From: Myxococcota bacterium
GTDB taxonomy: Bacteria > Myxococcota_A > UBA9160 > UBA6930
Reading direction: 5' to 3'
DNA: 64,000 nt
Assembly: GCA_028277885.1 (NCBI GenBank)
Contig: JANQFK010000079.1
Span: 1 to 64,000, forward strand
The notes under the pieces are model-generated. The model was not told the origin of the DNA. It made no database searches and saw only the letters and a list, made by a program, of their open reading frames with translations. The number at the start of each line of letters is the position of its first letter. Within the stretch, counting starts at the first letter, position 1. Made by a program: the position numbers and the translations under genes. Below are positions 7,671 through 14,573 of the stretch, in pieces.

Positions 7671-9923
7671 CTAGCGCGGCAGCACGTAGATGGGCGAGGA
7701 CCAGGCGCGCTCCTCGCCCGGCGCGAGGCAGTCGTCGTCGCGCGGGGTCTGGTAGCCGCCGTGGCAGGGCCGCGCCTCGACGCAGCGCCCGGTCTCGTCG
7801 TACTCGCAGCGCGCGAGGCCGCCGTTCACCATGGGGGTCGGCGGCTGGATGGCGCGCACGTAGTAGGTGTAGGGCCGCGAGCTGCCCGCGAACTCCGCGT
7901 CCTCGAACTCGACCACGCAGCCCGCGGGATCCGGCGCGCAGGCGAAGCTGCGCCAGGGATCCTCGACCAGGCTCGCCATGGGCTCGCCGGGCTCGACGCG
8001 GGGACGGATGCGCACCACCTCGATGCGGTCGATGGGCTGGCGCGCGTCCGACGGGTTGTAGCACTCGCCGCGGCACAGGGACGCGAGGCGCTCCGGCGAG
8101 AGCCCCGCCGTGGAGACGTCGGGGCAGCCCGGACCCTGCTGCAGGCTGCCGACGGCGCGCACCCGGAAGCGCGGCGCGGCGTCGAGCTTCACCCGGGCGC
8201 CCATGGGCGCCGCACCGCCGGGCGCGTTCACGAGATCGAACCAGAGCAGGATACGCTCGCCGCTGGTGCCGTAGGTCTCGCGCCGGCGCAGGGCGTCCCA
8301 GATGGCCTCGCGGGAGCGGTCCTCGGAGTGCACCACGGCGAGGCCGCCGGTCAGGAAGAACGAGGCCTGGCGCTCGAAGTCCACCGACAGGTAGGCGGGG
8401 AGGTCCGACGTGCCGGGGTCGAAGGCGACGGACTCCACCGGCGGCTCCGCGTCGAGGTCCACCTCGAACATGCGCTCGTACCAGGCCTCGTCCCGGGGCC
8501 CGCGCGCCTCGGTGTGGAAGAGCCGCCCGAACTCCTTGTAGCCCGTGCCCGGGCGCGCCGTGTGGCTGTCGCTCGACGCGATGAAGCCCAGGTGGAAGCG
8601 CGAGGGATCCCCGGGCGCCTCGAAGTCCGAGAGCCCGAGAATGTACTGCACCGAGCTCGCGGCGCGGTACTTCATCGAGGGCAGGAAGCAGCTGCGGCAG
8701 GTCCCGCAGTCCTTCCAGTCCTCGAGGCTCGTGCCCGGCACCGCGTGGCGCCCGGCCACGCCGGCGGCCAGGAAGTTCGCCCGCGCCTCGGCGACCCGTC
8801 GCTCGCAGGTCTCGGAGGTCGGGTCCTCGCAGCGCCCGCGGATGATCTCGCCCGCCCGCCAGCAGCAGGGCTCGAACTCCTCGGTGGGAGCCGGGCACAC
8901 CGGGGCGCCGCTCGCGTCGAAGTCGACGCTGCGCAGGTCGCGGTACTCCTCGGAGTTGCCGTGGCCCGAGAACACCTCGATCAGGGTCTGGCGCTCCGGG
9001 TCGTGCTGGGCCGCGGTGAGCTGCTTGTCCCAGCTCGAGCCGGGCGGCGTGTAGATCCCCCAGGTGGTGCCGTGGGGGATCACCAGGGACTCGAAGCCCC
9101 ACTGGTCGAGCTTCTCGAACAGCAGGCCCGGCGTGGCGGCCCCCTCCATGCAGTCCTCGGGAAGCTCGCGCACGTCCACGCCGGCGGGGCAGCGATCGGC
9201 TTCGCGCAGCTGCGCCTGGTAGTGGAACAAGTCGAAGTAGCGCTGGCGGTTGGGGAAGTCGAGGAGCGGCAGGCCCAGGCGCGTGCGCAGGGGCGGCGCC
9301 TGGGCCATGGCGGCGTTCGTGAAGCTGTCCGAGTCGATTGCGCGCGTGGGCACCGAGCCCTCGGCGAGGTCCCGGAAGATCACGTTCTTGTGGCCCCAGT
9401 GGTTCTCGGGCGTGGTTCCCACCTGGGTCCACTCCCAGCCCAGGAACGCCACTACGTCCGGGTTGGCGGGGTCGCCCGCGGCGGCGTTGCACTCCCGGAT
9501 GGACTCGCGGGTCTCGCGCCAGCGCCGAGGGGTCAGGGCCTCGGCGTGGTCGTTGATGCTCCAGAAGTCGACGCCCGAGCAGTAGCGGGCGAAGTCGCAG
9601 GCGTCCGCGACGGGCCGGGCGCCCTCCCCGCTCAGGATCGGCAGGCTCATCATGAAGGCGTCGGCGGAGTAGGTCGAGTGGACGTGGAGATCGCCGAACA
9701 GGATCTGCTTCCCGGGTGCGGGCAGGCGCGCCGCGGCCGCGGCCTCGGCCGCCGCGTCGGCGCGCGCCGCGTCTCGCGCCGAGACCGTCGCCTCGGGCAG
9801 GCGCGCGCCCTCGATCACGCCCGGGTCGTCGTCGCGGCCGCAGCCCACCGCCGCGGCGAGGGACGCCGCCAGGACCACGAGCAGCGCCCCCGCCGAGTGC
9901 CTTCCGCCTCCCCTTCCACCCAT
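7671..9923 (-). CDS. DUF3604-type (PHP-like) predicted lipoprotein
   Basis: KQILFGDLHVHSTYSADAFMMSLPI, FWSINDHAE; lipobox-like AAAVGC near the chosen N-terminus MGGRGGGRH. Confidence 0.82.
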   Translation of the reverse strand: MGGRGGGRHSAGALLVVLAASLAAAVGCGRDDDPGVIEGARLPEATVSARDAARADAAAEAAAAARLPAPGKQILFGDLHVHSTYSADAFMMSLPILSGEGARPVADACDFARYCSGVDFWSINDHAEALTPRRWRETRESIRECNAAAGDPANPDVVAFLGWEWTQVGTTPENHWGHKNVIFRDLAEGSVPTRAIDSDSFTNAAMAQAPPLRTRLGLPLLDFPNRQRYFDLFHYQAQLREADRCPAGVDVRELPEDCMEGAATPGLLFEKLDQWGFESLVIPHGTTWGIYTPPGSSWDKQLTAAQHDPERQTLIEVFSGHGNSEEYRDLRSVDFDASGAPVCPAPTEEFEPCCWRAGEIIRGRCEDPTSETCERRVAEARANFLAAGVAGRHAVPGTSLEDWKDCGTCRSCFLPSMKYRAASSVQYILGLSDFEAPGDPSRFHLGFIASSDSHTARPGTGYKEFGRLFHTEARGPRDEAWYERMFEVDLDAEPPVESVAFDPGTSDLPAYLSVDFERQASFFLTGGLAVVHSEDRSREAIWDALRRRETYGTSGERILLWFDLVNAPGGAAPMGARVKLDAAPRFRVRAVGSLQQGPGCPDVSTAGLSPERLASLCRGECYNPSDARQPIDRIEVVRIRPRVEPGEPMASLVEDPWRSFACAPDPAGCVVEFEDAEFAGSSRPYTYYVRAIQPPTPMVNGGLARCEYDETGRCVEARPCHGGYQTPRDDDCLAPGEERAWSSPIYVLPR

Positions 9924-10014
9924 GGACGGTCCCTCCCCCGTGCTGGCCACGGACCGCGGTTCTACCGCGACGGCGGTGCGCGGGTCAACCGTCGGCGACG
10001 CCGCGCGCCGCGGC

Positions 10015-11013
10015 TCAGCGCGGGACGGCGGCGTCGAGGGCGCGCACCCGCAGCTGCTCGTCGGGCGCGAAGTGGCGCCCCCGGAGCTCCTCGAGGGCCG
10101 CCTCCCGCCCGGCGGCGTCGAGACTGGCGTCGGCGAGCAGGGCGTCCCGCTCGGCCCGGTAGCGATCCAGTCGCTCGCTCCACGCGGCGCGCTCGCGGTC
10201 CTGGGCCGCGAGTCGCTCGGCCGCCTCGCTCCCCACCACCTGCTCACGCAGGGCCTGGATCTCGCCGGGCGAGGCTCCCGCGGCGCGAAGCTGGCGCTCC
10301 CGCTCCATCAGGCGCAGCACCTCGGACGCCTCGGCCCGGGCGCGCCGGACGCGCTCGGGGAGCTGCGCCTCGAGCTCGGCGAGGCGCGCGGCGCGCTCGG
10401 CCTCGTCGAGCTCGGGATCGTCGGAGACGCGGCGCATCTCGAGGCGGATCCGGGCCATCTGCTCCTGCTCGCCGAAGAGCGCCTCGGCGTCCTCGCCGAA
10501 GTGCTCGCGACGCAGCTCGCGGAGCCACTGGAGCCGGCGGTCGAGGTCGACCCCGAGGCGGGGATCGTCGAGGTCGCCGAGGGCCCCGCGGTAGGCGAGG
10601 TAGCGCTCCAGGGTGGCGCGAGCGTCGCCGCGGGCCGACGCCGGCAGCGCGTCGATCTGCGCCTGGATGCGCCGGAGCGCCGTCGCCAGGGGCTCGTCGG
10701 TGGTGCCGGCGAGGAAGTGGTCGAAGAGCGCGACGGCGCCGGCGCCGGGCACGAAGCGCCCCTCGGCGTCCACCTCGAGCCGGCCGGCGGGCGTGGTGCC
10801 TCGCAGCGCCCGCGGCAGGGGCGGCAGCCCGGTCGTGGTCGGGCTGGCGCCGCCTGGCGCCGGCTCCGAGGCGAGCCCCGGCGAGGCCACGCCCGCGTCG
10901 CGCTCCGCTGCCGAGCCCTGCGGCGCCGCGTCGCCCGCGGCGCGCAGCCACCACGCCCCGGCGGCCGCGGCGAGAAGCGCGAGCGCCGCGAGCCCCAGCC
11001 GCCACCCCGTCAC
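10015..11013 (-). CDS. Lipase foldase / lipase secretion chaperone
   Basis: N-terminal TM anchor; LPPLPRALRGTTPAGRLEVDAEGRFVPGAGAVALFDHFLA and long charged helices typical of Lif/LimK. Confidence 0.88.
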   Translation of the reverse strand: MTGWRLGLAALALLAAAAGAWWLRAAGDAAPQGSAAERDAGVASPGLASEPAPGGASPTTTGLPPLPRALRGTTPAGRLEVDAEGRFVPGAGAVALFDHFLAGTTDEPLATALRRIQAQIDALPASARGDARATLERYLAYRGALGDLDDPRLGVDLDRRLQWLRELRREHFGEDAEALFGEQEQMARIRLEMRRVSDDPELDEAERAARLAELEAQLPERVRRARAEASEVLRLMERERQLRAAGASPGEIQALREQVVGSEAAERLAAQDRERAAWSERLDRYRAERDALLADASLDAAGREAALEELRGRHFAPDEQLRVRALDAAVPR

Positions 11014-11022
11014 GACACGGGC

Positions 11023-12021
11023 TCAGAGCCCCAGGTTGCGCAGGCGGGTCGCGTGCTGGACGTAGGGGGTCTTCGGGTCCACCTCGAACAGGTGCGTGAG
11101 GCCGAGGATCTGGTTCACCTCGTCGAGGTGGTTCATCCAGTAGTCGTCCTCCAGGACGTCGCCGAACTGGGCGCTGCACACGGTGACGAGCCCGTCGTTC
11201 TGCTGGAACAGGTACACCACGCTCGCCAGTCCCAGCAGCGTGTCCGTGGGGTCCAGGAAGTTGGTGAGCACGTTCTTGCCGGTCCAGGAGTAGTAGCGGA
11301 CGTCGCCCACCTGGGCGGCGCCGGGGTGGCAGCCGGCGGGGAGCCCGTTCGGGAACAGGGCGTTGAAGTCGTCGATGCCGCTGCCGACCAGGTTCGAGAG
11401 GGCGGCCCGGGCGTCCACCGGGTCCGACGTCCCGAACAGCAGCTCGAGCAGGACGCCGATGGAGCTGCCGAACAGGTCGAGCAGCGCCGCGGTGAAGGTG
11501 CCGTCGGCCAGGATCCCGTCGAAGAGCTCGTCGAACACCAGCGCGCCCTTGTGCGGCGACCCCACGGTGGTCACCGACGCCACCAGGTCCGGGCGCACGC
11601 CGGCCACGTAGCGGGCGTCGAGCCCGCCCTGGCTGTGGCCGATGAGGTGCACCTTGTCCTTGCCCGTGATGATGAGGATGGCCTCGACCTGCTCGAGGAG
11701 CTGCTCGCCGCGCACGGTGCTCGAGTGGATGGCGCTCACCTGGGTGACGTGGACGTCGTTGCCCGCGTCCTCGAGGGCCGAGACGATCCCGAACCAGTAC
11801 TCGAGGGGCCCGTAGGACTCCATGCCGAGGGCGCCGTGGGCGAGGACGATGGGGTACGGCGGGCCGGGGTCGCCGCCGCCGGGGCCTCCGCCCGGGTTGC
11901 CGCCACCGCCGCCGCAGCGACCCGCGGTGAGCAGCGGGATCGCCAGGCACGCGATGGCGAGCTGGAGCCCCCTCGATCGACCCGGATTCGAGCTCAGGAC
12001 CGGCAGGCGCAGGAAACCCAT
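11023..12021 (-). CDS. Triacylglycerol lipase (alpha/beta hydrolase, family I-like)
   Basis: PIVLAHGALG, VHLIGHSQGGLDARYVAG, directly upstream of its foldase. Confidence 0.9.
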   Translation of the reverse strand: MGFLRLPVLSSNPGRSRGLQLAIACLAIPLLTAGRCGGGGGNPGGGPGGGDPGPPYPIVLAHGALGMESYGPLEYWFGIVSALEDAGNDVHVTQVSAIHSSTVRGEQLLEQVEAILIITGKDKVHLIGHSQGGLDARYVAGVRPDLVASVTTVGSPHKGALVFDELFDGILADGTFTAALLDLFGSSIGVLLELLFGTSDPVDARAALSNLVGSGIDDFNALFPNGLPAGCHPGAAQVGDVRYYSWTGKNVLTNFLDPTDTLLGLASVVYLFQQNDGLVTVCSAQFGDVLEDDYWMNHLDEVNQILGLTHLFEVDPKTPYVQHATRLRNLGL

Positions 12022-12113
12022 GCTTCGTTCCCCCTCGGCATTGGTGCGGCGGTTCTAGCACGGGCTGCGGCCGGGCGTCGACTGAACGGCGTTCCGCCCT
12101 CGGCGGCGCCGCG

Positions 12114-12893
12114 TCAGCGGATCGGGTTGCCGAGGTTGAAGACCGCGGCCTCGGGGTCCGGCGGCGCGTGGGGGTCCCGCTCGCACTCCGGCGGGAAGGC
12201 GCGGCGCTTGCGCGCGTAGTAGTCGTCGCGGTGGTCGCCCTGGGAGGCGGGGTTCCAGGTCACGTAGTAGGCACGGCGCGGGGCGGCGCTGCGGTTGGGC
12301 CCCGACCGGTGGGGCACGTAGGAGTCGAACAGCACCAGGTCGCCGGGCGACGTCTCGAGGGCGTGCCAGTGCAGCGACGCCACGACGTCGTCGCGCAGGG
12401 TCCCGTCCCCGGCCTGGGGCAGGGTCACGGCGTCGCGGAAGTCGTCCACGATGTCGAGGCCGCCGTTCTCGGGCGTCGTCGGGTCGACGGAGACCATCAG
12501 CGTCACGTGGAGCGTCTGTCCGAAGCTCACGAAGGCGGGCGCGTCCTGGTGGGGAGCGAAGCCCTCGCCGCCGGGCAGCTTGAAGTTGATCTTCTCCTTG
12601 AAGAGCACCGGCGGCTCGCCGAGGAGCTGCTCGAGGCAGCCCAGCAGGTCCGGGCGCGAGAGCCAGTCGCGCAGGCCGTCGTGGAAGGGGAGGAAGTTCT
12701 CGACCCGGCACAGCAGCCGCTCCTCGCCGGGCTCGAAGTACTTCATCCACCTGCCCGGGGTCTCGGGCCAGGCCTCGAGCTCGTCGGTCCAGCGCGCCAG
12801 GGCGGTGCGCTCGGCGGCTTCGAGTGCGTCGCGCAGCACCACCCAGTGGTGGGCGTCCCAGTGCGCGCGCTGCTCCGGCGTGAGCTCGATCAG
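12114..12893 (-). CDS. PhyH/PhnY-like 2-oxoglutarate/Fe(II) dioxygenase; start proposed as CTG at 12893 (track start is GTG 12842)
   Basis: HQDAPAFVSFG (HxD), VPHRSGPNRSAAPRRAYYVTWN; upstream extension LIELTPEQRAHWDAHHW in frame with AGGAGGG 8 nt before the CTG. Confidence 0.85.
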   Translation of the reverse strand: MIELTPEQRAHWDAHHWVVLRDALEAAERTALARWTDELEAWPETPGRWMKYFEPGEERLLCRVENFLPFHDGLRDWLSRPDLLGCLEQLLGEPPVLFKEKINFKLPGGEGFAPHQDAPAFVSFGQTLHVTLMVSVDPTTPENGGLDIVDDFRDAVTLPQAGDGTLRDDVVASLHWHALETSPGDLVLFDSYVPHRSGPNRSAAPRRAYYVTWNPASQGDHRDDYYARKRRAFPPECERDPHAPPDPEAAVFNLGNPIR

Positions 12894-12931
12894 CGGGGAG
12901 GCCCTCCTCGACGCGGTATCCTAGGAGAACG

Positions 12932-13537
12932 ATGCGGCCCGCGACAGGCGAGGATCCCGAGGCCCGGCTGCAGCGCCTGCTGGACCTGCTCGAGGCGTCG
13001 GCCCGGGCGGACTACATCGCCGAGCCCGTCTCCCAGCTCGAGCACGCGCTCCAGGCCGCGCAGCTCGCCGAGGCCGCGGGAGCGCCCGCGGCGGAGGTGC
13101 TCGCCGCGCTGCTCCACGACGTCGGCCACCTGTGCGACCCCGGCGCCGAGCGCATGGAGGGCGTCGGCGTGATGCACCACGAGGAGGTGGGCGCGCGCTA
13201 CCTCGAGAGCCTGGGGTTCGGCCCCGAGGTGACGGAGCTGGTGCGGGGGCACGTGGCCGCCAAGCGCTACCTGGTCGCCGCCCGCACGGACTACGCCGGG
13301 CGCCTCTCCGCCGCCAGCCGCCGGACCCTCGTCCACCAGGGTGGCGCCATGGACGACGCCGAGCGCCGGGCCTTCGACGCCGACCCGCGGCGCGACGCCA
13401 AGCTGCGCCTGCGCGCCTGGGACGAGGAGGCCAAGGTGCCGGGACGCGCGACGCCGGGTCTGGCCCACTTCCGGGAGCGGCTGGCCGCGCACCTGGGCGC
13501 CGCCGGCGAAACGGGGCTCAGCCCGCCCGGATCGTGA
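12932..13537 (+). CDS. PhnZ-like HD-domain diiron oxygenase / phosphohydrolase
   Basis: DYIAEPVSQLEHALQAAQLAEAAGAPAAEVLAALLHDVGHL, HHEEVGARYLESLGF, VRGHVAAKRYL. Confidence 0.85.
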   Translation: MRPATGEDPEARLQRLLDLLEASARADYIAEPVSQLEHALQAAQLAEAAGAPAAEVLAALLHDVGHLCDPGAERMEGVGVMHHEEVGARYLESLGFGPEVTELVRGHVAAKRYLVAARTDYAGRLSAASRRTLVHQGGAMDDAERRAFDADPRRDAKLRLRAWDEEAKVPGRATPGLAHFRERLAAHLGAAGETGLSPPGS

Positions 13538-14573
13538 CCGCGATGGCGTCGTGGTCCGAGAGCGCGGCGCCCGTCGCGGGGTCGACGGCGGGGAGCACCT
13601 CCGGTGCCTCGGCCACGAGCCCGCGCGCCAGGAACCAGTCGAGGTGGAGCCCGCCCCGCCCCGTCCCGTCCGGGCCCGCGACGCGCTGGGTGGGCTCGCC
13701 GACCTCGTTGCAGCGCTCCCACTCGTAGCCGGCCGCGGCGGCCACCTCGAAGAGCGGCTCGTGGGGCAGCGGCGTGCGCAGCCGCTCCGGATCCCGCGCC
13801 AGGGCCTCCCGCAGGCGTTCGGGATCCGCGAGCTCGGCCCGCCCGAGGGAGTGGGTGTTGAGGTCGCCGCCGATCAGCGCGGGGGCGCCGGGACGGCGCG
13901 CCTCGATCGCGTCGAGCAGGACGCGCAGCTCCGCGGCGCGCTCGTCGGGGTCGCCGTGGCTGTCGAGGTGCACCGCGGCGAGCGCCACCTCGACGTCGCC
14001 CAGCTCGAGGGAGGCCAGCACGGCGATGCGTCCACCGACGCGCCGCTGCCCGCGCTCGGGACCGAACCAGTCGCCGCGGGTCTCGAGCCGCACCAGCTCC
14101 GGGCGGACCAGGGGGTAGGCCGAGAGGATGGCGCCACCGTGGTAGCCGACGCGGTTCCCGGCGCCGGCGTGGGCGGCGGCCTCGGCGGCGTCGCCCAGGC
14201 CGAGCTCGAGGAACTCGACCCCGAACGCGTAGCCCGTCGCCAGGGCGTCGGCGAGCGCCCGAGCCGCGTGGCGCTGGCCCGAGCGCGCCATGCCGACGTC
14301 GAGCTCCGAGAGCAGCGCCACGTCGGCGCCGGCGAGCAGCGCCGCACCCGCGGCGGGCTCCCGACCCCGCTCGGCGTTCCAGGCCACGACCCGCAGCCCG
14401 CTCCCGGGAGCGGGCACGGGCCGCGGAGCGGCGGGCGGGCGCACCTCGACGGCGCGGGCGAAGGGCATCCCGGCGAGGAGCTGCCGGTGGCAGGAGGGGT
14501 CCTGCGGGCCCGCGAGGATGCGAGCGCGCTCCGCCTCGGCGACGACCTCGAGCTCTCGGAGGGCGGGCGCCAC
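13518..14573 (-). CDS. Endonuclease/exonuclease/phosphatase family protein
   Basis: LRVVAWNAERG, LSELDVGMARSG, VHLDSHGDP, LIGGDLNTHS, LSDHDAIAV. Confidence 0.88.
   Translation of the reverse strand: MAPALRELEVVAEAERARILAGPQDPSCHRQLLAGMPFARAVEVRPPAAPRPVPAPGSGLRVVAWNAERGREPAAGAALLAGADVALLSELDVGMARSGQRHAARALADALATGYAFGVEFLELGLGDAAEAAAHAGAGNRVGYHGGAILSAYPLVRPELVRLETRGDWFGPERGQRRVGGRIAVLASLELGDVEVALAAVHLDSHGDPDERAAELRVLLDAIEARRPGAPALIGGDLNTHSLGRAELADPERLREALARDPERLRTPLPHEPLFEVAAAAGYEWERCNEVGEPTQRVAGPDGTGRGGLHLDWFLARGLVAEAPEVLPAVDPATGAALSDHDAIAVTIRAG

Follow-up and report, generated by a model that had tools for sequence, protein, structure and literature searches.

Several two-enzyme systems are known that cleave the carbon-phosphorus (C-P) bond oxidatively. 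The HF130_AEPn_1 PhnY/PhnZ pair of an uncultured marine bacterium converts 2-aminoethylphosphonate (AEP) to glycine and inorganic phosphate, PhnY/PhnZ1 of Gimesia maris converts methylphosphonate to formate and phosphate, and TmpA/TmpB converts trimethyl-AEP to glycine betaine and phosphate. For PhnZ and TmpB, the lid and the mixed-valent diiron chemistry have been described (PMC8177086). The Gimesia PhnZ takes both hydroxy-AEP and hydroxymethylphosphonate while the Gimesia hydroxylase is specific, and PhoF is a known fungal PhnY-PhnZ fusion (PMC10574752).

Here we describe a related gene pair in a 64,000-nucleotide stretch of DNA (the window) from a Myxococcota assembly (5.19 Mb, 89.6% complete). 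The two genes very likely encode a PhnY/PhnZ-type two-step oxidative C-P cleavage pathway. The locus itself is an ordinary, well-supported example of this already known pathway; what is unusual lies outside the window, in a sister clade of the hydroxylase and in bacterial fusions of the two proteins.

A divergent dioxygenase and HD-domain gene pair

An earlier note on this DNA had read the locus as a PhyH-type dioxygenase gene head-to-head with an HD protein gene, and this arrangement is borne out. The PhnY-like Fe(II)/2-oxoglutarate (2OG) dioxygenase (259 aa; 12114..12893, minus strand) matches the Pfam family PF05721 (PhyH) at 5.6e-19. The divergent gene (201 aa; 12932..13537, plus strand) encodes a predicted PhnZ-like HD-domain mixed-valent diiron oxygenase, based on TIGR03276, phmmer, tree and AF2/Foldseek results. 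The 5′ ends are separated by a 38-bp spacer (12894..12931), in which both ribosome-binding sites lie.

The first listed start of the dioxygenase, a GTG at 12842, is internal and omits about 17 residues that are present in all homologues. A CTG at 12893 aligns with the ATG of one relative (L088) and the TTG of another (L087). Because of this alignment and the good ribosome-binding site upstream (GAGGAGG), we consider CTG 12893 to be probably the true start, giving a gene of 12114-12893. Codon-position GC (0.73/0.47/0.98 and 0.85/0.52/0.96) is typical of genuine genes of a GC-rich genome for both frames. A scan of 12000-13700 found no sigma-70-like promoter, such a scan being uninformative in a GC-rich genome.

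The flanking genes, all on the minus strand, encode a DUF3604 protein (7671-10247), a lipase-like alpha/beta hydrolase (11023-12021) and an endonuclease/exonuclease/phosphatase family protein (13518-14573). They have no obvious tie to phosphonates.

The HD protein groups with PhnZ

The motifs first noticed in the HD protein are all present: Y28-x-x-E31, H38 seven residues past the Glu, H62-D63 another 24-25 residues on, and G106-HVAAKR. The earlier note matched them to the PhnZ spacing, and alignment to PhnZ confirms that the Tyr/Glu lid and all diiron ligands are kept. Residues H38, H62, D63, H83, H107 and D164 correspond to PhnZ H34, H58, D59, H80, H104 and D161, and the lid Y28/E31 aligns with Y24/E27. 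Other conserved pocket positions are K111, S126 (window numbering) and R161, which fall in invariant columns. In PhnZ numbering the protein reads D23 Y24 I25 E27 H34 H58 D59 H62 V77 H80 H104 K108 S126 T129 L130 R158 D161. PhnZ D23-Y24-I25, E27, V77, T129 and L130 are thus common to it, whereas in Gimesia-type enzymes position 25 is a gap and the residues at 77 and 129 are D and S.

The proposed search with TIGR03276 (NCBIfam Phn-HD) gave a mixed outcome: it is the top-ranked model and matches over positions 4-179 of 179 (1.1e-58), but the score of 197.7 bits is below the curated cut-off of 214.6. Proteins from L106, L107 and L109, in the same tree clade as the window HD protein, exceed this cut-off. 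Next in the NCBIfam order come the TmpB model NF049941 (140.8 bits) and the hydroxymethylphosphonate dioxygenase (GmPhnZ1) model NF052439 (128.1 bits), both under cut-offs of 300. Likewise, phmmer favors PhnZ (4mlm, 4.6e-49) over TmpB (3e-29).

The suggested structural alignment is also in agreement. The AF2 model (pLDDT 91.8) fits substrate-bound PhnZ (4n71) to 0.9 A, the identity being 48% and the TMt 0.96 (Foldseek), and the first non-oxygenase HD match appears at E 0.05. In the tree, the window HD protein and HF130 PhnZ share a 33-row clade (support 100/99) with TmpB and Gimesia-type enzymes outside. HF130 PhnZ nests among HD proteins partnered with window-type hydroxylases, which indirectly favors a common clade for HF130 PhnY and the window hydroxylase; among about 750 alpha- and gammaproteobacterial genomes it has no relatives above 60% identity, the best being 51%. 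The earlier note had named an HD protein outside the PhnZ/TmpB clade, or one lacking the diiron site or lid, as grounds against its reading; we find the protein inside the PhnZ clade with site and lid kept.

The dioxygenase has the PhyH-type features expected of a PhnY

A PhnY is expected to combine a PhyH fold with a His-x-Asp...His triad and an Arg, and Pfam, the conserved residues and a fold search find all of them in the dioxygenase. The AF2 model (pLDDT 95.0) retrieves the PhyH-type hydroxylase fold. The facial triad H115-x-D117...H195 and R206/R207 (numbered from the CTG) are near-invariant family-wide and, by analogy with the superfamily, would serve as metal and 2OG ligands. A PDB sequence search with this protein returned no TmpA among matches up to E=1.

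Linkage and fusion across relatives

We collected 80 related loci for gene-context comparison. A PhnZ-type HD gene is found in 28 of the 32 loci of the window hydroxylase clade, which span several phyla. Four lack a scored HD gene: two (L012, L015) are near contig ends, L009 has an HD gene elsewhere in the genome, and L036 shows a partial HD match just upstream. The arrangement varies from tandem in either order to divergent (the window, L007, L008, L087 and L088) and convergent (L025), and in L038 the HD gene is 3.9 kb distant. No extra neighbours are conserved with the pair beyond groups of close relatives, and no virus-borne copies were found in IMG/VR.

In 10 of the 28 loci, all bacterial, the two proteins are fused in a single ORF of 438-480 aa with the HD domain first (L014:7359-8780, L016, L017, L021, L024, L027-L030 and L039). 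The fusion state requires at least four changes on the tree. We found no account of bacterial PhnY-PhnZ fusions in a limited literature search.

Within the set of 80 genomes, three (the host itself, G007 and G072) encode a window-type hydroxylase with at least 65% identity, and the module is therefore patchy; its transfer between lineages is a plausible inference. In two gammaproteobacterial genomes, MFS transporter genes adjoin the hydroxylase-HD operon (L186:7212-11439 and L187:7750-10538), and these transporters are candidates for a substrate uptake route.

Phosphonate genes elsewhere in the host genome

The absence of a transporter or C-P lyase near the pair, pointed out before, extends further. 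PhnJ was not found in the host genome (89.6% complete), PEP mutase and PhnW models matched it below their cut-offs only, and no dedicated phosphonate transporter was found. Its sole PF12974 (PhnD-like) match is on another contig (L183:6671-10975, G000:C40). There, the PhnD-like binding protein gene is followed by an adjacent hybrid histidine kinase gene and is divergent from a Porin_O_P gene. From its gene content, this locus may function in phosphate or phosphonate sensing or in outer-membrane uptake.

Predicted pathway and substrate

The earlier proposal of a PhnY/PhnZ-type pathway is supported at the sequence level by the position of the HD protein in the PhnZ clade and by linkage or fusion with the hydroxylase across many lineages. 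In the first predicted step, the Fe(II)/2OG dioxygenase would hydroxylate the carbon beside the phosphorus, converting 2-AEP to (R)-1-hydroxy-2-AEP. The close structural match to PhnZ suggests that, in the second step, the hydroxy-phosphonate would displace the lid Tyr28 at the Fe(II)/Fe(III) site of the HD oxygenase, with Glu31 contacting the substrate amino group. With O2, abstraction of the C1 hydrogen and C-P cleavage would then yield glycine and inorganic phosphate. Such a route would work without C-P lyase, PhnW or an external reductase.

Of the two Gimesia enzymes only the hydroxylase is specific, PhnZ acting on hydroxymethylphosphonate and hydroxy-AEP alike (PMC10574752). It is therefore the hydroxylase that decides the substrate, and HD similarity alone is insufficient. 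The window hydroxylase shares more identity with hydroxylases from AEP clusters (mostly 38-46%) than with those of the Gimesia methylphosphonate type (37%), and the HD protein is in the AEP-PhnZ clade. For these reasons AEP itself is our best guess, and it is probably the substrate. The TIGR03276 score below cut-off, the failure to find a dedicated phosphonate transporter and the hydroxylase model matches described below count against it.

A methylphosphonate pathway of the Gimesia/Prochlorococcus type, running through hydroxymethylphosphonate to formate and phosphate, would use the same kind of enzyme families and chemistry. Moreover, the only curated hydroxylase model that the dioxygenase matches strongly is NF052437 (methylphosphonate hydroxylase; GmPhnY). 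Its score of 192.5 bits is, however, far under the cut-off of 500, and the Gimesia-type hydroxylases branch apart with actinobacterial plasmid pairs (100/98). With the HD protein outside the Gimesia-type clade and devoid of the Gimesia marker residues, we regard methylphosphonate as quite improbable. Another amino-phosphonate would be compatible with the retained amino-contacting Glu31, and N-methylated AEP, trimethyl-AEP (TmpA/TmpB) and 3-aminopropylphosphonate (fungal PhoF) are such substrates used by known pathway relatives (PMC10574752). The TmpA/TmpB-like substrate suggested as a hedge in the earlier note is disfavored: the HD protein is outside the TmpB clade, the hydroxylase is PhyH-type, and PDB sequence searches with the two proteins found TmpB but no TmpA. 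A substrate of this group other than AEP is thus unlikely.

The two genes could also have no role in phosphonate catabolism, in which case a PhyH dioxygenase of generic type would simply neighbour an HD phosphohydrolase. Both superfamilies are large, divergent neighbours can occur by chance, and the host genome has three further, distant PhyH relatives. Yet linkage or fusion recurs in most loci of the clade, the lid and ligands of the HD protein are oxygenase-specific, and the structure search that closely matched PhnZ gave no HD hydrolases below E 0.05. A pair unrelated to phosphonate catabolism is accordingly very hard to credit. With AEP as its substrate, the pair is predicted to supply phosphorus, together with the nitrogen and carbon of glycine, from a common natural phosphonate to a Myxococcota-lineage bacterium in which no C-P lyase gene was detected.

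A sister clade of the hydroxylase in biosynthetic clusters

A 71-row hydroxylase tree, built after setting aside nine long or partial rows and thinning the second clade, separates 35 HD-linked rows from a 36-row clade (support 100/100). The HD-linked rows comprise the window clade together with Gimesia-type enzymes and two pairs from actinobacterial plasmids. Many loci of the 36-row clade are found in AEP biosynthesis clusters (L033-L086, e.g. L042:7315-13699, L062, L066 and L074) with PepM, Ppd and PhnW genes; the reference copies with which these genes were searched for pass the NCBIfam cut-offs (TIGR02320, TIGR03297 and TIGR03301). Often the loci also carry genes for a CDP-alcohol phosphatidyltransferase and a nucleotidyltransferase. 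This genomic setting of the sister clade suggests that enzymes of the family act on an AEP-like substrate.

When context is labelled as HD or biosynthetic, a single change is needed on the 71-row tree. The split is imperfect: L032 and L178, both left out of that tree, have PepM/Ppd neighbours and yet fall on the HD-linked side, on long branches, in a quick tree.

From gene context, the sister clade would hydroxylate AEP for lipids. The family may therefore use C1 hydroxylation of AEP in two opposite ways, for destruction with PhnZ in the window branch and for 1-hydroxy-AEP phosphonolipid head groups in the sister branch, a proposal that we hold with evenly divided confidence. A phosphonate-making hydroxylase branch is apparently unreported. 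The window hydroxylase has P119 and F121 where the biosynthetic branch has Q119 and G121, and these markers could keep biosynthetic hydroxylases from being annotated as degradative PhnY. With this comparison, the origin of 1-hydroxy-AEP in bacterial lipids becomes open to testing as well.

Hopanoid genes lie beside the hydroxylase in several of L041, L043, L046, L051, L053, L057, L066 and L074; such neighbours in sister-clade loci include squalene-hopene cyclase, HpnA, HpnB, HpnH and HpnN. This placement hints at a connection of hopanoid with phosphonate metabolism.

Three plasmid loci have particular gene contents. In Rhodococcus and Dietzia (L176:4999-9361 and L177:4925-9274), a Gimesia-like PhyH and HD pair is part of a conserved cassette that also encodes a GPR1/FUN34/YaaH transporter, a cobalamin-independent methionine synthase II family protein and a second 2OG oxygenase. 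In Azospirillum thermophilum (L178:5815-7554), a hydroxylase-like region overlaps an ORF annotated as a class V aminotransferase beside aepY, a possible hydroxylase-aminotransferase fusion.

Comparison with known systems

The closest counterpart is the HF130_AEPn_1 pair. Its PhnZ is in the same clade as the window HD protein and about 48% identical to it, with all ligands and the lid kept and the model fitting at 0.9 A, and the partner is a 2OG dioxygenase in both systems. In sequence, the likeness is that of the HD protein to PhnZ. Differences are the head-to-head orientation of the window genes and their host, a Myxococcota relative.

The Gimesia maris pair shares with the window the enzyme families, the two-step logic and a PhyH-type hydroxylase. 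In contrast, the hydroxylases are 37% identical, both proteins fall in separate clades, and lid spacing and pocket markers differ. The Gimesia genes are co-directional, often with a DUF5690 membrane protein, whereas the window genes are divergent.

TmpA/TmpB resembles the window system in its HD oxygenase chemistry and YxxE lid, but the window HD protein, about 35% identical to TmpB, falls outside its clade, and the hydroxylase has no TmpA match. Finally, PhoF of Fonsecaea multimorphosa is a fused protein while the window proteins are separate; its fusion logic recurs in the bacterial HD-hydroxylase fusions related to the window pair.
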